DNA of 43,933 nucleotides from Akkermansia muciniphila (GTDB lineage Bacteria; Verrucomicrobiota; Verrucomicrobiia; Limisphaerales; UBA11320), in contig CAMAVD010000013.1 of the NCBI GenBank assembly GCA_945861575.1, positions 1-43,933 on the forward strand. Direction: 5' to 3'. Shown in pieces: positions 3,330 to 12,009 of this stretch. The notes below the pieces were generated by a model, which had not been told where the DNA came from, made no database searches, and saw nothing but the letters and a program-made list of their open reading frames with translations. Within the stretch, counting starts at the first letter, position 1; the number at the start of each line of letters is the position of its first letter. A program made the position numbers and the translations under genes.

Positions 3330-4622
3330 ATGAGCAGCGGCATTTACGATGATTTGCAGTGGCGCGGGTTGGTGGCGGATTGCACGGACACCCCGCAGTT
3401 AACCCAGCGTCTGTCCACCAGCCCGGTGGTGTTATACTGTGGCTTTGACCCTACAGCCGATAGCCTTCACGTGGGGAATTTAGTCCCGCTGCTTGCGCTG
3501 CGTCGCTTTCAGAACTACGGGCATCATCCGATTGCTGTGGCGGGTGGAGCCACCGGGTCCATTGGGGATCCAAGCGGGAAGACCCAGGAGCGCCCATTGC
3601 TCACCCAGGACATCCTGGAGGCTAATATCGCAGCAGTGAAGGTGCAGTTGGCGAAGTTGCTGGACTTCGACTCTTCGTCCAACCCCGCCCGCCTGTTGGA
3701 TAATGCGAGTTGGACCGGCTCGGTTCGCTTCATCGATTTCCTCCGCGACATCGGGAAGCACTTTTCGGTCAATATGATGATCTCCAAGGAGAGCGTGCGC
3801 GCTCGGATGGAGGACCGGGAGACGGGCATCAGCTACACGGAGTTCAGCTACATGCTGCTCCAGGCGTTTGACTTCTATCATCTTCGCAAGGAGCTGAACT
3901 GCGAACTGCAGATCGGTGGCAGCGATCAGTGGGGGAACATCACCGCGGGTACGGACCTTTGCCGGAAGAAGTTGGTCGCAACCTGCTTTGGGCTCACCTT
4001 GCCGCTCATCACCAACGCCGATGGCAGCAAGTTTGGCAAGACAGTGGCAGGTGCCATCTGGATGGATGCCAAGAAGACCAGCGTTTACCGCTTCTACCAG
4101 TTTTGGATTCGGACGGACGATCGAGATGTGGTGCGGTATCTGAAGTATTTCACCTTCCTGAGTCGGAGCGAGGTTGAGGCGTTGGAGCGTCAGCATTTAG
4201 AGCGACCCGAGGGCCGGGTCGCCCACAAGGCCCTCGCCAAGGCTGTGACCGATCTGATCCATGGGGAACAGGCGACGCAGGAGGCGATGCGCGCCAGTGA
4301 GATCCTCTTCGGCGGCGGTCTGGAAGGGATATCGGAGAGCACGTTTAATGATCTGTTGGGAGAAGTTCCGACCAAGGCTCTGCAACCCACTCAGATTGCG
4401 GATCCCGGGATCGCACTCTTGGACCTGCTGGTCGTTTCAGGCTTGTGCGCCTCCAAGGGTCAGGCGCGCAAGGATTTGGAAGGGGGCGGAATTTCACTGA
4501 ACACTGTCCGGGTGACCGAGTTGAGTCGTCAGGTGACCCGTGCAGATCTGCTTTTCGGCAAGCATTTGCTCTTACGAAAGGGTAAACGAAACTACGCATG
4601 TGTCACCCTGGCCACGACATAG
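3330..4622 (+). CDS. tyrS: Tyrosyl-tRNA synthetase
   Basis: 430 residues, the usual size for bacterial TyrRS. It charges tRNA-Tyr with tyrosine in the cytoplasm. The class I HIGH motif appears as HVGN (47-50) after the tyrosine-binding CGFDPTADSL segment, and the KMSKS loop appears as KFGKT (234-238). The GGSDQWGN tyrosine and tRNA-binding segment is near 196-203. The last 70 residues form an S4 RNA-binding domain (LLVVSGLCASKGQARKDLE). KFGKT rather than KMSKS is the normal form of the TyrS type found in most bacteria. Its end is close to rpoZ and smpB, so this is a translation/transcription housekeeping cluster. Confidence 0.97.
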   Translation: MSSGIYDDLQWRGLVADCTDTPQLTQRLSTSPVVLYCGFDPTADSLHVGNLVPLLALRRFQNYGHHPIAVAGGATGSIGDPSGKTQERPLLTQDILEANIAAVKVQLAKLLDFDSSSNPARLLDNASWTGSVRFIDFLRDIGKHFSVNMMISKESVRARMEDRETGISYTEFSYMLLQAFDFYHLRKELNCELQIGGSDQWGNITAGTDLCRKKLVATCFGLTLPLITNADGSKFGKTVAGAIWMDAKKTSVYRFYQFWIRTDDRDVVRYLKYFTFLSRSEVEALERQHLERPEGRVAHKALAKAVTDLIHGEQATQEAMRASEILFGGGLEGISESTFNDLLGEVPTKALQPTQIADPGIALLDLLVVSGLCASKGQARKDLEGGGISLNTVRVTELSRQVTRADLLFGKHLLLRKGKRNYACVTLATT

Positions 4623-4699
4623 TCATAGAATCTTATTGCCACGCTGGTCGCAGCGGCTACTTTCAACCGCTCGATCGTCACTTTAAACCGAACTCTCAC

Positions 4700-4969
4700 G
4701 TGAACAGCGAATTTTGCAAACAGGCGTTGGCCAAGGTTGGAAACCCTAACATTTTGATTAACATCGTCTCGCGTCGTGTTCGACAGCTCACCACCGGCGG
4801 GGGCTCTGGAAGTCGGCCGCTGATCCTGGACGTGCAGAACTTGGGGGCAGCTGATATTGCTCTGCTTGAGTTGGTGGAAGACAAGATGGCTTGGGAAACC
4901 CCGACTCTCGACAAGGTTGCCGCAGGCGCGATCATTCCTCCCAAGAAGCGCCGCAGCAAGAATCACTAA
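4700..4969 (+). CDS. rpoZ: RNA polymerase omega subunit
   Basis: From the GTG at 4700 the product is 89 residues, right for omega, which helps assemble and stabilise RNA polymerase through the beta' subunit. The diagnostic stretch is NPNILINIVSRRVRQL, followed by RPLILDV and a C-terminal region with LLELVEDKMAWE. The basic tail ends in KKRRSKNH. The frame stays open upstream to an ATG at 4598 that overlaps tyrS by 25 bases, but that extension has no omega-like sequence, so GTG is preferred. No Shine-Dalgarno sequence precedes either start. The gene is easily missed because of its short length and non-ATG start. Confidence 0.85.
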   Translation: MNSEFCKQALAKVGNPNILINIVSRRVRQLTTGGGSGSRPLILDVQNLGAADIALLELVEDKMAWETPTLDKVAAGAIIPPKKRRSKNH

Positions 4970-5091
4970 TTCTTGCCTGTCGGGGGTGGGTGGCCGTATT
5001 TCCATGAAATGCCTCCACTCTCCTCCCCAAGGGCCTAGATTTGGTTTTCCAGGGTCTACTGCTCGGATTCCCTGCTCGACTCTCGCGGTCT

Positions 5092-5547
5092 ATGGCTGAC
5101 ATCGTTTCCAATCCAAAAGCACGTCGGGATCTCCACATCCTGGATACCTTCGAGAGTGGGATTGTGCTTCGAGGCACCGAGGTGAAAGCCTTGCGAGCGG
5201 GAAAGGCTCAGATCAGTGACGCGTTCGTGCGGGTGGATAAAGACGAGGCCTATCTTCACAACGCCCACCTGGACGAATACAGCTTCGGAAATCGAGAGAA
5301 TCATATCCCCAAGGCTGTCCGTAAGCTGCTGCTTCACAAGAGCGAGATCCGCAAGATCGCAGAGTATGGATCACAGAAAGGGCATGCGATCGTGCCGCTT
5401 TCATTCTATTGGAAAAGCGGTAAGGTCAAGGTGTTGGTGGCGGTCGGGAAGGGGAAAGCGGAGTTCGACAAGCGCGACGATATCAAGCAGCGGGAATCTG
5501 ACCGTGAACTGAGGCGAGCGACGATGAAGTATCACAAGGGACGGTAG
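5092..5547 (+). CDS. smpB: SsrA-binding protein SmpB
   Basis: From the ATG at 5092, 151 residues, typical for SmpB, which carries tmRNA to stalled ribosomes in trans-translation. Recognisable blocks are NPKARRDLHILDTFESGIVL, GTEVKALRAGKAQISDAFV, the central HIPKAVRKLLLHKSEI region and the basic C-terminal tail beginning DKRDDIKQRESDRELRRA, which enters the mRNA channel of the ribosome. An upstream TTG at 5041 would add 17 residues that do not look like SmpB, so the ATG is used. No tmRNA gene is visible in this window. A half copy of the CTAG repeat begins 12 bases after the stop. Confidence 0.96.
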   Translation: MADIVSNPKARRDLHILDTFESGIVLRGTEVKALRAGKAQISDAFVRVDKDEAYLHNAHLDEYSFGNRENHIPKAVRKLLLHKSEIRKIAEYGSQKGHAIVPLSFYWKSGKVKVLVAVGKGKAEFDKRDDIKQRESDRELRRATMKYHKGR

Positions 5548-5558
5548 CCCCTTGCTGC

Positions 5559-5590
5559 CTAGCAGGCCCTTGGACTTAGAGTGTTTTCAG
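5559..5590 (+). repeat. Half copy of CTAG element (copy A)
   Basis: Starts CTAGCAGGCCC and continues GGACTTAGAGTGTTTTC, which matches the first 30 or so bases of copy B at 20937 with a few substitutions. The second inverted arm is absent, so this is a truncated copy. It fills the gap between the convergent smpB and NYN genes. Confidence 0.6.
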
Positions 5591-6063
5591 CTGCCCTTGC
5601 CCCGTTTGAAACGGTTCCGTTCCTTCAGATTTCGACCTTGGATCTGGCCTCGCATCTCTTTGCTGGCGATTTGCATGGTTTGGATGAAGTTCCAGCAGTT
5701 GCTGGTCATGGCTCCTACGGCGCTCGCGGTATCCCTCTCGGCATGGTCTTCGGTGACCACGAGCACCTCCCCATACGCACTCAGCCGATGTGCCGCACGC
5801 TCTATAAGCTGGTCTGCGGTCTGACCTGCCTTGCTGTAGAGGATCTCCACTTCGCGAGTTGACGTTTCACAGCTCAAGCCACCGGAAGGGCGGTTTCCGT
5901 CGAAAACCACGGTGATGGGGACACCGCTCGCATCGTGGTAGGCGGTGAGTTGACGAATCAGTTCATCCCGGGCTGCCGCGCTGTAGCGTGCTTTTCCAGG
6001 GGCCAATTCTGGCCACTGGTGGAGCAGGCTATAGCCATCCACAAGAATTCGTACCAACGCCAT
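5587..6063 (-). CDS. NYN-domain ribonuclease (YacP/Rae1-like)
   Basis: 158 residues, covering a single NYN/PIN-like domain of the YacP type. Acidic residues expected for metal-dependent RNA cleavage are D9 in ILVDGYSLLH, D55 in VVFDGNRP, D84 in QTADQLIE and the VVTEDHAERD cluster (D106, D111). The C-terminal tail is basic. Bacillus YacP (Rae1) is a ribosome-associated endoribonuclease; a role in RNA decay is inferred by family only. The gene is divergent from the CvpA-like gene, and the 93-base spacer contains an inverted repeat at 6095-6121. Its 3' end touches the half repeat copy A. Confidence 0.83.
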   Translation of the reverse strand: MALVRILVDGYSLLHQWPELAPGKARYSAAARDELIRQLTAYHDASGVPITVVFDGNRPSGGLSCETSTREVEILYSKAGQTADQLIERAAHRLSAYGEVLVVTEDHAERDTASAVGAMTSNCWNFIQTMQIASKEMRGQIQGRNLKERNRFKRGKGS

Positions 6064-6094
6064 GCCTCATAGCAAAGCGAGGGTTCTGGAGAAT

Positions 6095-6121
6095 ACGAAC
6101 AACAAACTCATTTTTGTTCGT
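6095..6121. promoter_or_regulatory. Inverted repeat in divergent promoter region
   Basis: Perfect 8-base arms ACGAACAA (6095-6102) and TTGTTCGT (6114-6121), with 11 bases between them, lie between the divergent NYN and CvpA-like genes. This could be an operator or a small hairpin. No regulator is identified. Confidence 0.35.
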
Positions 6122-6156
6122 GCGTTTTTCGCAGTGGTTTCGGTAGCTTCCAGGCC

Positions 6157-7359
6157 ATGCTCGTCTGGTCCATAGCACTTATTCTGGCCATCTCCTGTGG
6201 GATATTCGGCTTTTATGTGGGGGCGATTCGATGCGCCATCACCACCATCGCCCTGATCCTCAACCTTCTTCTACTGATTCCGTTGTCGAATCTCGTGGGG
6301 AAGATTCTCCCCAACCTAGGGATTAGCCATCCTGGCATGATTTGCGTTGTGGCACCTTTTGTCGTTTTTCTGCTCTTTCAGATCCTCGCGAAGGCCATCG
6401 CTCATTCAAGCCAGGCCCCGATTGAGAACTACTACAAGTACAAGGCCTCTGATACACAGCGTATGCTTTTCGAGCGTATGAATCAGCGTTTGGGACCCTG
6501 CGTTGCCATCCTGAACGCGCTTTTCTATACCGTTTTCGTGGCCATCGCGGGTTTGGGCTTGGGCTACGCGACGGTCCCACTAAGCCGTGGAGGGGAAAAG
6601 GACTCCTTCCTCTTCAAATCAGTGAACTTGCTGGCTCGCGGAGTGCAGTCCACGGGGATGGCAAGGGTTGCAAGTCCCTACGTGCCCGCTGCGCCGATCT
6701 ACTTCGAACTGGTGGATGTCATCGCGGAATGGTTTCACCAGCCCTTGGTTCAAAGCGGCTTCTCCACCTATCCTCCGTTCATTCCCTTGGCCGAGAAGAA
6801 GGAGTTTGAAAGCATGGGCAATGATGTGAAGCTGCCCGACTTTCTGCTGAAATCCCCTTCCTATACCGACATTCTTGAACATCCCAAGCTGGGGCCGATC
6901 TTCACGGATGTGACCTTCCTGGATACGGCTCTTAAAAGCCTGGGGGGAGATCTGTCCGATCTCTCGACCTACATCAAGACAGGGCAATCCCCGAAGTATG
7001 ATGATGAAAAGATCCTGGGACGCTGGGACTTCAACTTGCCTGCGAGCGTCGGGGAGAGCAAGAAGCTGAAGCGGATGAGCGCATTGGAGGTGAACCGGCT
7101 TTCCGTTCAGCTTTCGAGTTTGATGCAAGATGTGACGCTGCTTGCCACGGTTGATCACAAGATCATTCTCCGGAAAGGCTCGACGCAGACCGGGAATTTC
7201 GTGCGGCGTGAGGGAACCTGGAAGACTGACGGGGGTGGTAAGTATCAGATCAGCCTGCCGGTGGCAGATGATCGAAGCCTGGAAACGTCCGGTTCGGTTG
7301 AGGGGAGAAGGCTTCACCTGTCGTGGACGGGTGTCCGAGCCCTATTTGATCGCTGGTAG
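6157..7359 (+). CDS. CvpA-family membrane protein with long C-terminal domain
   Basis: 400 residues. The N-terminal half has about four hydrophobic segments (roughly 1-25, 28-50, 60-85 and 115-140) in a CvpA-like arrangement, starting with a short GxxxGxxxGA-type helix (GIFGFYVGAIRCA). The region from about 150 to 400 is soluble, with charged helices and a C-terminal beta-rich part (VDHKIILRKGSTQTGNF onward) that looks like a small lipocalin- or META-like sheet. CvpA proteins are linked to membrane stress and colicin V production in enterobacteria; the function of this extended form is unknown. The start follows a divergent promoter region and no close homologue can be named. Confidence 0.55.
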   Translation: MLVWSIALILAISCGIFGFYVGAIRCAITTIALILNLLLLIPLSNLVGKILPNLGISHPGMICVVAPFVVFLLFQILAKAIAHSSQAPIENYYKYKASDTQRMLFERMNQRLGPCVAILNALFYTVFVAIAGLGLGYATVPLSRGGEKDSFLFKSVNLLARGVQSTGMARVASPYVPAAPIYFELVDVIAEWFHQPLVQSGFSTYPPFIPLAEKKEFESMGNDVKLPDFLLKSPSYTDILEHPKLGPIFTDVTFLDTALKSLGGDLSDLSTYIKTGQSPKYDDEKILGRWDFNLPASVGESKKLKRMSALEVNRLSVQLSSLMQDVTLLATVDHKIILRKGSTQTGNFVRREGTWKTDGGGKYQISLPVADDRSLETSGSVEGRRLHLSWTGVRALFDRW

Positions 7360-7386
7360 GTCGGCTTCGAACGGCTGGGGGTCCTC

Positions 7387-7761
7387 CTAAGGAGGGCTTC
7401 CCACGCAGAAGTTTTCCATGAAAAGGAATTCGTTGAGTAGCTGCTCCACCTCAGACCGGGGCACCAGCTGCTCGTCGCGTGATACGTAGAGACCTAGAAC
7501 CGTGGTGTCCATCCTCTGAGCGGCGTACAGACAGGCGTGCTCATAGACCCAGCGCAAGGAAAGGGAGTCGAACTGCTGACCATCACGCACGGCCTGGAAG
7601 GTTTCTCTGAGTGAGCGCCAGCTGTTGTTGAGGAAGAGTGGCTGGTAGATGCTGGAGCAGCTTTGGCCGAAAAAGGTGTTGTCGAAGTGGATGACCCCGA
7701 TGGCGAAAAGCCCGGTACGCTGTGCCTGCTGACTAACCCAACCGTTGATATGCTCTTTCAT
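7387..7761 (-). CDS. Small protein, possible roadblock/LC7-like fold
   Basis: 124 residues, last gene of the four-gene signalling operon, 18 bases after the receiver/DUF4388 gene. I do not recognise a named family. The predicted order is helix (KEHINGWVSQQAQR), strand pair (GLFAIGVIHFDNTFFGQSC), helix (NNSWRSLRETFQAVRDG), three strands (SLRWVYEHACLYAAQRMDTTVLGLYVSRD), helix (RSEVEQLLNEFLF). That order is what a roadblock/LC7 domain has, and such domains partner with small GTPases or with each other. The assignment is inference from pattern. The context makes a signalling partner of the upstream proteins likely. Its 3' end is 27 bases from the convergent CvpA-like gene. Confidence 0.6.
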   Translation of the reverse strand: MKEHINGWVSQQAQRTGLFAIGVIHFDNTFFGQSCSSIYQPLFLNNSWRSLRETFQAVRDGQQFDSLSLRWVYEHACLYAAQRMDTTVLGLYVSRDEQLVPRSEVEQLLNEFLFMENFCVGSPP

Positions 7762-7779
7762 CGGATACGCACGAGTGGA

Positions 7780-8985
7780 TCACGCCACGGCTGTGGAAAG
7801 TTGGACGCCGGGTTTTTCCCGATTGGCCTTGAGTAGGTAGCTGTGCTCCTCCTCTACACGAATGATCAACCGAGATTCCATCCCTTCCATCTCCAAACGT
7901 TCGAACGCGCCCACCGGCAGACCTTGGCAAACTTGGCGTGCTTTCTGACGGACGAAATCCATGAACTGCACCCGCTCCGCCGGGGCCATGCATTGCCAGC
8001 AGTGAATCACCTCCCCGCGGTTTCCCACGATCAAGAACTCGTCTACAGAGGGAGGTACGGCTGGGGTAGGTTCCGAGAACGCGGTGGTGGGGTTTCCGGG
8101 GTCATACTCTACCAAAGCTGGGACTTGCTCGGCCTGGTCTCCATCGGCCACGGCTGTCGCGTTCCCTGTCTGCGAGACGTCTGGAGGCGTTGCGGAAAGT
8201 GGGTCAGAGGTGAGGGCTTCGGGTGAGGATGGATTTGCGGCTTCTGCGGCCGCAGCTTGAGCCTCCACATTGAGTTCCTCGTCGCGCATTCGCGCCGCCT
8301 CCATGAGGAGGAACTCCCAGGAGCCATTGATACTTCGGTCCGGGGGTTCGCTAAAGCCCTTCAGATTGAACTGCCCGCCCGTGAAACCGAGCAGTCGATT
8401 GAAGGCGGTCTCACCGGTCATGTCGGAGACCTGCGCGTGTACTATGGATCCCTGCTCGATGAAAATCTGCCCGGTCTCGCCATTGGCCTCGATCTCCAGA
8501 ATGACCGAGCTCCTGGCCAGGCATTCCATCTGCAGGACATCTTGAATACCAACCCGGCGCAGCACTCCCTGAAAGCCGCTTTCCGGCTGCCACTTTGAGA
8601 GTTCATCGAGAGTGGCGTAGACAATTTCAAGCGCTTCCGGGCAGCGCGGCTTCTCCATGAACAATTCCACACCATTTGCCTGGCAGGCCTGGCGGTATTC
8701 TTCGGAGGCGTCTCCCGTCAGCACCGCGCGTGGAATGCTTGGGTATTTGCGCTGGAGCAGTTTGAGAAACTGGATGCCATCCACCACCGGCATGTGGATA
8801 TCGACCACCACCAGATGGGCAGGACTTTGCTGAAGCAGCGCCAGCGCTTTGCTGGTTGTGGAGGCGAGCAGGACCTCCCAGGCACCTGCGCTGTAGGTCT
8901 CCATCGCTTGGCCCACCACCTCCAAGAAAGCTGGCTCGTCGTCCACGAACAGGACGCGGCGCTTGCTCTGGATGGGGAGGGACAT
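7780..8985 (-). CDS. Response regulator with DUF4388 (PATAN) and C-terminal roadblock-like domain
   Basis: 401 residues in four parts. Residues 10-128 are a complete receiver domain: acidic pair D15/D16, phosphoacceptor D62 (VVDIHMPVVDG), T90 and K112. Residues about 136-215 are a DUF4388/PATAN domain (GFQGVLRRVGIQDVLQM, then GQIFIEQGSIVHAQV). Residues about 240-312 are a low-complexity Ala/Pro/Thr linker. Residues about 313-390 (DEFLIVGNRGEVIHCW onward) look like a roadblock/LC7 domain by predicted strand and helix order. PATAN response regulators control type IV pilus motility in cyanobacteria by binding the pilus motor, so regulation of motility or polarity is a reasonable guess only. It starts 12 bases after the HDOD gene ends. 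No sensor kinase is encoded nearby. Confidence 0.85.
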   Translation of the reverse strand: MSLPIQSKRRVLFVDDEPAFLEVVGQAMETYSAGAWEVLLASTTSKALALLQQSPAHLVVVDIHMPVVDGIQFLKLLQRKYPSIPRAVLTGDASEEYRQACQANGVELFMEKPRCPEALEIVYATLDELSKWQPESGFQGVLRRVGIQDVLQMECLARSSVILEIEANGETGQIFIEQGSIVHAQVSDMTGETAFNRLLGFTGGQFNLKGFSEPPDRSINGSWEFLLMEAARMRDEELNVEAQAAAAEAANPSSPEALTSDPLSATPPDVSQTGNATAVADGDQAEQVPALVEYDPGNPTTAFSEPTPAVPPSVDEFLIVGNRGEVIHCWQCMAPAERVQFMDFVRQKARQVCQGLPVGAFERLEMEGMESRLIIRVEEEHSYLLKANREKPGVQLSTAVA

Positions 8986-8997
8986 GGTGAGAGACGG

Positions 8998-10305
8998 TCA
9001 GGCCGCAGCAGCGATGGGAGCACCGGTCAGCACAGGTGTGTTCGCAGTATTTATCAAGGTGGTGGTATCCGGTGTTGCCGCGGGCAGCTCCTGCTTCTCC
9101 TCGATGGGCGGGAGCTTGCAGGCGGCTCTCCAGTTGGGAAGGCTATCGATCAACTCGAGCTCCTGGATATAATTGAGATCCACCTCGGGCAGCATGCGGT
9201 TCTGCACCTTGCCCTTGCCTCGCTGCTCCTGATCCCAGGCGTTGGCAATGTGGACGGCCGTCAGGGGGGAGAAGCTCTTGCTGAGGAAGCGACTCGGATA
9301 GTGATGCAAGGCCACCGCCTCAATAATGGTGACCGGCAGGCCCCAGATGCCGAGGACGCAGGCACCTACCTCCGCATGTGTGAGTGAAAACACCTCCTCC
9401 TCAACTAACCATAGGGGCCTCCCCTCCCGGTGTGCTGTCTGGAGAACTGAAATGTAGTCCGAGGTCAGATTGCAGGCGATGACGAGTTTGCCAATGTCGT
9501 GCAGAAGCCCGGCTGTGAAGGACTCCTCAACCATGTCGGGTGGTGCCCCTTGGTTGACCGCGATGGTCCTTGCGAGCGAGCCGGTGGCCAGGGCGTGTTC
9601 CCAGAGCCTCTCAACACTGAAGGAGGACGACTTGATCTTGTCAAAGTAGGAGAAGGTGTGGGCCAGCAGGAGGACGGACTTCGTTGTCTCTGCGCCTAGG
9701 CACAGCACGGCTTCGGTGGGGCTGGCAATCTGGCGGCGAAGGCCAAAGACGGCGGAGTTGATCAGTTGAAGCAGCTTGGCCGTCATCACAAGATCTTTGG
9801 CGATGAGTCCTCCGATGGTTTCCAGGCTCGAAGTCGGGGATTGCAGCTCCTTGACCACCTGGAAATAGAGAGCAGGAATACTGGGGAGCTTCTGCATCTG
9901 CGAGATGAAGCGCTTCACCCGCTCGTTCATCAGCCAGACGTCCAGGCTGAAGGCGCGGTCCAGCGCTGCCTTGAGCGTCTCTGGATCGCAGGGGGTTGCC
10001 AGGTAGTGATGCGAGGTGCCGACGCATTTGGTGACCGCCTGTTTGTCTGAGAGGTCGGCTAGAAGGAATCGCTGCGTTCTGGGGTGCTGTTCCGTCAGCT
10101 GGTTCAGAAACTGCAATCCGCTGGCGCAACCGACGCGGAGCTCGGTGACCACGGCGTCGAAGCCGTTCTGGCCCAGGGAACATTGGGCCTCCACGATTCC
10201 CGGGACCCCAACCACTTCCCAGTTGGGGCCGAGGCCGGAGGCCAGAGGCTTCAATGAGTGGAGGCCGTTAGGCCCATCTCCGACAAGCAAGAGGCGACGT
10301 TTCAT
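8998..10305 (-). CDS. HDOD-domain protein with degenerate receiver
   Basis: 435 residues. Residues 1-120 have the length and strand/helix pattern of a receiver, but the phosphoacceptor position is E55 (AVVTELRVG), the conserved Lys before Pro is T104 (LATPCDP), and only one residue of the acidic pair remains (D10). It is therefore probably a pseudo-receiver. Residues about 135-340 form an HDOD domain (LPSIPALYFQVVKEL, LLQLINSAVFG) that keeps a GLLHDIGKL motif with H269/D270. The C-terminal 90 residues are variable and end in a Thr/Ala-rich tail. HDOD proteins relay signals in motility, stress and cyclic nucleotide pathways. It is second in the operon, 34 bases after the HEAT gene and 12 before the response regulator. 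Confidence 0.87.
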   Translation of the reverse strand: MKRRLLLVGDGPNGLHSLKPLASGLGPNWEVVGVPGIVEAQCSLGQNGFDAVVTELRVGCASGLQFLNQLTEQHPRTQRFLLADLSDKQAVTKCVGTSHHYLATPCDPETLKAALDRAFSLDVWLMNERVKRFISQMQKLPSIPALYFQVVKELQSPTSSLETIGGLIAKDLVMTAKLLQLINSAVFGLRRQIASPTEAVLCLGAETTKSVLLLAHTFSYFDKIKSSSFSVERLWEHALATGSLARTIAVNQGAPPDMVEESFTAGLLHDIGKLVIACNLTSDYISVLQTAHREGRPLWLVEEEVFSLTHAEVGACVLGIWGLPVTIIEAVALHHYPSRFLSKSFSPLTAVHIANAWDQEQRGKGKVQNRMLPEVDLNYIQELELIDSLPNWRAACKLPPIEEKQELPAATPDTTTLINTANTPVLTGAPIAAAA

Positions 10306-10339
10306 AACTCAAAGCAATCCATTGCCAGATCTTCTATCG

Positions 10340-11719
10340 TCATCTTCGGTCCACTCGCCTCTGAATTTCCTCCCAAGAATGGTTGGCAGATGCCTGAACC
10401 CATGGGTCGATGTCCTGGCGAGCGCTGCCTAGGGCAATTGCCACCCGGGCATCGCCGAGGCGTCCGAGTGCTTCAGCAGCAGCGAGACGAAAATCACGAT
10501 CGGAATCGCGGAGCAGCTTGACGAGAATCTGAACGGTGCGAGGGGCGGAAGCCATGGCCGCTGTGGCTGCGGTTTCTTCGGGCTGTTCGAAACGCCCGCG
10601 AGCCGCAGCGATTCGCGCCAGGACGTCGGCGGCTGCCTGGCGCACCCAATAGTCACGACTCCGATGGGCCGCTTCCAGCTCGCTGATGACGCCCTGCGCT
10701 CCTTCCCCTGCGTCCCAGTTCGGCTCCAGGCGTTGTAGCGTGCTCAGGGCGGCGTTCCGGATTGAGCGGACCTCATCGGTCAGAAGAACGATCAGTCCCG
10801 GCACCGCTCGGAGATCCGCCAAGCAGGTCAAGGATCGTAACGCGGTCAGCCGGACATCGGGGTCTTTGTCCCTCAGCAGCGGGAGGAGAGGGTCCACCGC
10901 ACGAGGATCATTGCTTTTGCCCAGGGCTTCCACGGCGGAGCGTCGTACGTCCCAGGACTTGTCGCGGAGAGCCACCGTGAGCGGCGTAAGCGCCTTGGAT
11001 CCACCGATCTTTCCTAACACTTCCGCCGCGGTGGCTCGGACCGGCACAAACTCATCCTTCAGCGCCATGATCAGCGCGTCGATCGCCTCCGGATTACCGA
11101 GTCGGCTGAGTGCTTCGACCACGGAAACTCGAACATGGCTATCCGGATCTCGGAGAGCGCTGACGAGGGGGCGCAGGGCGCGGGGGTCCTCCAGTCGTGA
11201 TAGGGCATCGACTGCTGCTTTGCGCTGCTGGTACGAATCGGATTTCAGGGCTGCCACCAAGGGCAGGAACGCGTGGTCGCCCTCCTGGGTGGCCTGCATG
11301 AACTTGCCCGTGGCGATGGATTGCACCGCGCGCTCATCGGAGGTTTGCGGTTGCCATCCCAATTGGTCCAGCGCCCGTGCGGCCGCTTTGCGGACCTCCG
11401 TGCTTGGATCCTTGAGCGCGGCGATCAGGGGGCGTTCTGCACACTGAGCGTGGGCTTGGCCAAGAGCCAGGGCGGCGGCTTCTCTGACCTCTGGGGCAAA
11501 GTCGTTGAGAAGACCTGTCAGCGGGATGGCCACGCTATCGTGCCGGAAGGCACCCAAAGCGGACGTGACCGCCCGGCGGACCGCGATCTCGGGATCTGCG
11601 GATGCCTCGGCCAACGCATCGATCGCCTCGGGCTTGCCGGAGGCAGCCAGCTTCTCAGCGGCCGCGATCCGAGCCTCGGGCTTTCGGGACTTCAACTGTT
11701 GTATGAACCACCAGAGCAT
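10340..11719 (-). CDS. HEAT/PBS-lyase repeat scaffold protein
   Basis: 459 residues built almost wholly from about twelve HEAT-like repeats of roughly 31 residues. Each has a motif like DPDSHVRVSVVEALSRLGN followed by a second helix such as EAIDALIMALKD. Such solenoids bind other proteins. An upstream TTG at 11740 would add seven residues, but the ATG at 11719 is more natural because the repeat pattern begins soon after it. It is the first gene of the signalling operon and is divergent from transaldolase, with a spacer of about 290 bases in which I see no clear operator. A scaffold role for the downstream HDOD and receiver proteins is inferred from position only. Confidence 0.85.
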   Translation of the reverse strand: MLWWFIQQLKSRKPEARIAAAEKLAASGKPEAIDALAEASADPEIAVRRAVTSALGAFRHDSVAIPLTGLLNDFAPEVREAAALALGQAHAQCAERPLIAALKDPSTEVRKAAARALDQLGWQPQTSDERAVQSIATGKFMQATQEGDHAFLPLVAALKSDSYQQRKAAVDALSRLEDPRALRPLVSALRDPDSHVRVSVVEALSRLGNPEAIDALIMALKDEFVPVRATAAEVLGKIGGSKALTPLTVALRDKSWDVRRSAVEALGKSNDPRAVDPLLPLLRDKDPDVRLTALRSLTCLADLRAVPGLIVLLTDEVRSIRNAALSTLQRLEPNWDAGEGAQGVISELEAAHRSRDYWVRQAAADVLARIAAARGRFEQPEETAATAAMASAPRTVQILVKLLRDSDRDFRLAAAEALGRLGDARVAIALGSARQDIDPWVQASANHSWEEIQRRVDRR

Positions 11720-12009
11720 GGGGGAATCCCCAAAAACCAACGTTTATTGAGCTGTCGCACTTCCATCTACCACCGGAACAGGGAACCAGATTCTGTGGGT
11801 GCTTTCTGCACCTGTCCTAAATCGGGACTTCAGTCCTTCCCAAATCAAACGATCAAGTCCTAGGTATGCATTCGGCCTGCGGCGCCTTTCGCTTCAATCC
11901 CACGCCGCCTATGAAGCAGGACTCGTGCACATTCACATTGGCAACGGAATCGCTGTCTGTTCCTATCACCTCCGGCCGTGATTGCGGCGCTGCTTTAATC
12001 CATTACACT

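Follow-up and report, generated by a model that had tools for sequence, protein, structure and literature searches.

The four-gene operon

A minus-strand operon of four genes occupies positions 7387 to 11719 of contig CAMAVD010000013.1 (assembly GCA_945861575.1), a stretch of 43,933 nucleotides, which as a whole is referred to as the window and which belongs to a 5.2-Mb draft genome (377 contigs, about 86% complete). The operon encodes a HEAT-repeat protein, an HDOD protein, a regulator with a receiver and a DUF4388 domain, for which we use the working name RR, and a protein of 124 amino acids (aa), which we call RBL; the C-terminal domain of RR is termed RRC. The arrangement of the four genes on the minus strand with gaps of 34, 12 and 18 bases, which had been described in an initial annotation of this DNA, was confirmed based on open reading frames (ORFs) and Pfam matches. 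The genes and their domains are listed below.

10340..11719, minus strand: HEAT-repeat protein, 459 aa, first gene, presumed scaffold (Pfam HEAT_2, E 4.5e-69)
8998..10305, minus strand: HDOD protein, 435 aa, variable member of the operon (Pfam HDOD, E 7.8e-51, above cut-off)
9961..10299, minus strand: degenerate receiver-like domain of the HDOD protein, residues 3-115 (Response_reg sub-threshold, 20.3 bits against a cut-off of 30)
9295..9888, minus strand: HDOD domain, residues 140-337 (Pfam)
7780..8985, minus strand: response regulator RR, 401 aa, with receiver, DUF4388, linker and predicted roadblock-like domain (Pfam and fold models)
8629..8955, minus strand: intact receiver of RR, residues 11-119 (Pfam Response_reg, E 3.9e-19)
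8278..8571, minus strand: DUF4388 (PATAN-type) domain of RR, residues 139-236 (Pfam, E 1.2e-16)
7825..8049, minus strand: RRC, short predicted roadblock-like domain of RR, residues ~313-387, order bb-a-bbb (a, helix; b, strand; model of the homologous domain in the fusion L023)
7387..7761, minus strand: RBL, predicted roadblock protein of 124 aa, order a-bb-a-bbb-a (AF2 model and PDB structure matches)

RR can be classified as a DUF4388 response regulator, since the DD/D/T/K residues of its receiver are complete and its DUF4388 match lies above the cut-off. Among 50 aligned RR homologues, D15, D16, D62 and K112 are kept in 49 to 50 sequences and T90 is either T or S; the phospho-acceptor D62 corresponds to the codon at 8800-8802. 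The N-terminal domain of the HDOD protein had been labelled a pseudo-receiver, and correctly so, as E55, A83 and T104 stand in for the expected D, T/S and K. These three sites vary across 12 aligned homologues, all of which retain the HD-type histidines and the aspartate of the HDOD domain. An in-frame TTG at 11740 represents an alternative start of the HEAT gene. A Pfam scan gave no match for RBL, and we detected neither promoter or terminator signals above chance nor an Rfam match. The window contains no GTPase gene.

HEAT-RR-RBL is the conserved unit

Relatives of RR were collected from 53 contigs and RBL was sought in 58 genomes, whereby neighbour counts refer to distinct loci with enough sequence (47 for RBL, 41 for HEAT and HDOD). 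Wherever the record names a phylum, the close RR relatives in this contig collection belong to the Verrucomicrobiota. An RBL profile search located RBL directly downstream of RR in 47/47 loci, a total that comprises 44 loci counted automatically as well as L011, L030 and L032 from the RBL profile list, and because of this constant position we consider the four ORFs to be real genes. A HEAT homologue is found upstream of RR in 37 of the 41 loci. For the HDOD gene, a position immediately before RR was recorded in only 8 of the 41 loci; a few loci carry an HDOD gene downstream of RBL. The conserved unit is HEAT-RR-RBL, with the HDOD gene as a lineage-specific, optional passenger. The expectation that all four genes are neighbours in related genomes therefore holds throughout the order for HEAT, RR and RBL and fails for the HDOD gene.

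At three loci, i.e. L023 (copy L066), L026 and L035, RR and RBL form a single ORF. On the tree, the fusion label requires two changes, and a single origin is compatible with it. The distribution of the module was investigated in a sample of 146 genomes of one Verrucomicrobiota order and 288 other genomes of the phylum; RBL was present in 50 of the former and in none of the latter.

RRC and RBL are predicted roadblock domains

The AF2 model of RBL, which was built from a 48-row alignment, reached a mean predicted local distance difference test score (pLDDT) of 89.6 and a predicted template modelling score (pTM) of 0.84. A Foldseek search of the PDB with this model returned roadblock proteins as its best matches, the exceptions being two de novo designed chains at lower ranks. 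A second look with VIA yielded Z scores of 13.3 for a Streptomyces protein (3kye), 12.8 for LAMTOR2 (6wj2) and 12.6 for the Thermus MglB (1j3w), while profilins scored below the roadblock proteins (Z ~10). The fold assigned to RRC comes from a homologue and not from the RR chain of the window: we modelled the natural RRC+RBL fusion fragment L023:4924-5559 (pLDDT 93.8, pTM 0.88), the RRC half of which shows a pLDDT of ~96 and the order bb-a-bbb. This half (residues 4-86 of the model) matches LAMTOR4/5, the dynein roadblock light chain and an Odinarchaeal roadblock protein with Z 8.0-8.7 over 77-84 residues, and for the RBL half the matches are MglB-like and archaeal roadblock proteins (Z 8-10). 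Mixed alignments of RR C-terminal domain and RBL rows misplaced ~8-17 N-terminal residues of RBL, and A3, the one with the smaller misplacement, was used. The roadblock-like character that had been noted for the 124-aa protein and for the C-terminal domain of RR is thus borne out by structure prediction, according to which both are predicted to adopt roadblock folds.

The pTM of 0.88 for the two-domain chain of L023 implies that RRC and RBL are packed in one orientation, as is expected for a roadblock dimer. Based on the predicted folds, the fusion genes and the invariable adjacency of the two genes, we consider it very likely that RRC and RBL pair as a roadblock heterodimer.

None of the 48 RBL members matched Robl_LC7 (PF03259), the family that includes MglB. 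For RRC the best E value against this family was 0.11, and the RRC of the window reached E 0.23 with 11.7 bits, compared to a cut-off of 23. No mutual sequence homology was detected between RBL and RRC, and searches of PDB sequences with both profiles returned nothing meaningful. An assignment of RBL or RRC as an MglB orthologue was rejected, since hhalign comparisons with nine local MglB sequences gave probabilities below 1%. Because sequence homology was detected neither between RBL and RRC nor with MglB, their identity as roadblock proteins rests on structure prediction.

The module is linked to mglAB in some relatives

The initial annotation had named a polarity output as a possibility. 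Support for this link now comes from the gene order in relatives, from a paralogous gene pair that the genome of the window carries opposite mglBA, and from the co-occurrence with mglA. Outside the window's own family, some members of the order have the HEAT-RR-RBL operon directly attached to mglAB. In G009 (L102), a single strand carries tprRobl (3576-5471), mglA (5481-6092), mglB (6097-6579), HEAT (6718-8547), RR (8557-9630) and RBL (9692-10051), which are separated by gaps of 9, 4, 138, 9 and 61 bases. In G066, the contig with mglA (L104) breaks off within mglB near residue 58, and roughly two residues later mglB continues on L038, the contig that carries HEAT-RR-RBL; this suggests that mglB is split across abutting contigs and that the gene order is the same as in G009. 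The RR proteins of these two genomes form the sister group of the RR clade of the window (tree support 92/92). G105 (L103) harbors the order DUF4388-containing protein-RBL-tprRobl-mglA-mglB. Contiguity with mglAB is seen in the families f6 and f23. The DUF4388 protein of G105 (L103:8984-11212, minus strand) comprises 742 aa and has a long N-terminal extension, a Laminin_G_3 match just below the cut-off and no receiver hit; the called 5' end of the gene may lie too far upstream.

Among the 146 genomes of the order, 79 contain mglA, which was detected in 47/50 RBL-positive and 32/96 RBL-negative genomes (Fisher 2e-13, phylogeny and the incompleteness of metagenome-assembled genomes being ignored). 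Counted by family, the ratio is 25/27 versus 16/35 (p 1e-4, same test ignoring phylogeny and completeness). The gene pilT is present in 145/146 genomes, and since it is nearly universal, its co-occurrence can neither support nor exclude a link to pili.

In the genome of the window, the mglAB locus is located on another contig, where it faces a second pair of RR- and RBL-like genes:

C65 (L089) 7135-9654, minus strand: tprRobl, roadblock protein of 839 aa
C65 (L089) 6485-7099, minus strand: mglA, Ras-like
C65 (L089) 6001-6510, minus strand: mglB
L089 9830-10933: RR2, second receiver-DUF4388 regulator, divergent from tprRobl-mglA-mglB
L089 10921-11235: RBL2, 104-aa ORF overlapping the end of RR2 (RBL profile E 3e-5; hhalign probability 75)

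RR2 shares 29% identity with RR over 254 aa (E 9e-38), and the RR2-RBL2 arrangement beside mglA also occurs in L104, L110 and L111. The RR2 proteins form a clade of their own apart from the RR family of the window (tree support 100/100), and an hhalign comparison of the RR2 C-terminal domain for roadblock-likeness gave a probability of 8. The gene tprRobl precedes mglA in every mglAB locus examined; the name is a working name, as no TPR was found. Its products (L089:7135-9654, minus strand; L102:3576-5471, plus strand) are long Pro/Ala-rich proteins with a C-terminal Robl_LC7 domain and repeat-like N-terminal stretches. An ORF of ~134-141 aa lies beside RR2-RBL2 in L089:11262-11684 (plus strand), L104:142-567 (minus strand), L111:12603-13007 (plus strand) and L110:10784-11194 (plus strand). 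The versions in L104, L110 and L111 are alike by eye and probably helical, and the ORF in the same position of L089 has no Pfam match.

Proposed mechanism and alternative explanations

Taken together, the HEAT-RR-RBL operon probably represents a new module that controls cell polarity or motility in bacteria. On balance, we lean towards a reading in which a phospho-controlled RR/RBL heterodimer, scaffolded by HEAT, regulates the MglA polarity module or determines its location. RR would act as a phospho-switch, whose RRC would pair with RBL to form a roadblock heterodimer, and this complex may be held on the HEAT solenoid. It would then act on the MglA-MglB-type small-GTPase module, which is encoded elsewhere in the genome (contig C65), presumably by contacting MglA, MglB or tprRobl. 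Phosphorylation of D62 could alter the binding of the heterodimer to one of these three proteins and thereby determine where or how strongly MglA is active, and the likely output would be pole-localised surface motility or type IV pilus activity. In a more far-reaching version, which is appealing but which we regard as somewhat doubtful, an order-specific and previously undescribed RRC+RBL heterodimer would be the phosphorylation-controlled input of the verrucomicrobial MglA GTPase and an analogue of the Ragulator platform, and RR2-RBL2 at mglAB would provide a second input, possibly converging on one GTPase.

Several observations weigh against an action on MglA. Neither RBL nor RRC has profile-level sequence similarity to MglB, and roadblock folds also work as plain dimerisation modules. 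The heterodimer model stems from the natural fusion of a distant relative and not from the two separate chains of the window. In the window and at most loci, mglAB is not adjacent to the operon; the two share a contig in 2 of the 47 genomes that have both, to which the contig pair of G066 can be added. The co-occurrence test is uncorrected for phylogeny or incomplete genomes, and no mglA was detected in three RBL genomes (G032, G111, G117), two of which are more than 90% complete.

Three alternative explanations were considered. The complex of RR, RBL and HEAT could directly control a type IV pilus or type II secretion motor without MglA, as reported for cyanobacterial PATAN regulators. This would fit the combination of DUF4388 with an intact receiver, the numerous ATPases of the PilB/PilT type that the genome encodes (13 T2SSE matches; 4 pilT) and the RBL genomes without detected mglA. 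However, no pil gene was recurrent beside the operon when the flanking genes of the loci were compared, pilT is found irrespective of RBL, and the recurrent neighbours of RR-RBL include mglA, mglB and tprRobl, so that we consider direct motor control rather unlikely. A comparably low likelihood is assigned to the roadblock pair being a mere dimerisation or assembly device, which holds RR on HEAT for an unrelated output such as HDOD signalling, with an incidental linkage to mglAB. HEAT indeed adjoins RR-RBL far more often than mglAB does, the HDOD gene joins the operon in some lineages, and the missing similarity to MglB would be in line with such a role. The HDOD gene, however, is missing from most loci, and the contiguity with mglAB in two families, the RR2-RBL2 pair at the mglAB locus and the co-occurrence with mglA argue against an incidental linkage.

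The third alternative is a narrower form of the regulation of MglA by RR/RBL, in which the two proteins would resemble the RomR/RomX complex: RR would supply the receiver, and GTP would be loaded on MglA by RBL or by RRC-RBL. Such a two-protein complex with a receiver subunit and a linkage to mglAB has a precedent in Myxococcus, where the RomR/RomX complex is the guanine nucleotide exchange factor of MglA (PMC9481161). The likeness to RomR and RomX is drawn from descriptions rather than from sequence comparison, and MglB, the roadblock protein with an established action on MglA, is a GTPase-activating protein; we therefore regard an exchange-factor role as improbable.

Relation to known systems

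The closest counterpart to the proposed regulation of MglA by RR/RBL is the MglA/MglB module of Myxococcus xanthus with RomR/RomX, MglC and RomY, which likewise combines a small GTPase, roadblock proteins and a receiver-domain regulator, and in which the regulators are also separate proteins acting on MglA. In contrast to that module, DUF4388 and a roadblock-like domain are part of the regulator described here, which is accompanied by a HEAT gene and by a roadblock partner dedicated to it; in sequence, this partner, RBL, does not detectably resemble the local MglB. RomR consists of a receiver, a Pro-rich linker and a Glu-rich C-terminal helix; an identification of RR as RomR is ruled out by DUF4388 and the roadblock-like C-terminal domain.

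PATAN (DUF4388) regulators such as PatA and the cyanobacterial pilus-motor regulators share the combination of receiver and DUF4388 with RR, but in the literature searched we found no description of a domain like RRC at the C-terminus, of a constant partner like RBL or of a neighbouring HEAT gene. In 2014, PATAN genes were already noted to be loosely associated with Group 1/5 mglA in genomes (PMC4316618). The Streptomyces conservons (Cvn) also comprise a roadblock protein, a small GTPase and a two-component element, which in their case is a histidine kinase without a response regulator (PMC4316618), whereas the operon described here has a response regulator and no kinase. Ragulator (LAMTOR) pairs one long (LAMTOR2/3-like) with one short (LAMTOR4/5-like) roadblock subunit as a platform for small GTPases. 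The likeness of RBL and RRC to these subunits is at the level of the fold only, and the pair described here is bacterial and would be phospho-controlled. RR/RBL may work as a component of a GTPase platform outside the MglB sequence family.

In the open-access literature, we found no description of a response regulator that contains a roadblock-like domain and is combined with a HEAT gene and a roadblock protein as its dedicated partner, only general notes on PATAN and MglA. Most of what is known about polarity control by Ras-like GTPases comes from Myxococcus, and studies in the Verrucomicrobiota are scarce. If the proposed action on MglA is true, it would represent a second bacterial route from a two-component signal to MglA, via a regulator-borne roadblock domain and a dedicated roadblock partner. 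The analysis provides two predicted roadblock families unrecognised by Pfam, as well as a short list of proteins for binding tests.

Neighbouring genes and module variants

Some clades have conserved flanking genes (nadC/birA/coaX- and tyrS-like, as judged by eye), which seem to be ordinary housekeeping genes. In five loci, the operon is followed by a HisKA-like protein of ~215-242 aa (L014:10812-11531, L017:4495-5223, L020:9482-10132, L022:9435-10157, L024:4501-5223), which has an invariant H in an HDL/HEL box and in which no ATPase domain was recognised in the one member tested. This protein could be a phosphotransferase feeding RR. An orthologue was not found in the genome of the window, where the only matches are stretches of large ORFs (at least 663 residues).

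The small genome G111 contains two copies of the module (L107:8002-9042 and L108:8427-9433, both on the minus strand), one of which has HEAT-, RRC- and RBL-like sequence in a single ORF with little sign of a receiver. In the window, the operon is convergent with a plus-strand gene at 6157-7359 for a 400-aa protein, which has no Pfam match at E 1e-5 and a hydrophobic N-terminus that is CvpA-like by eye.

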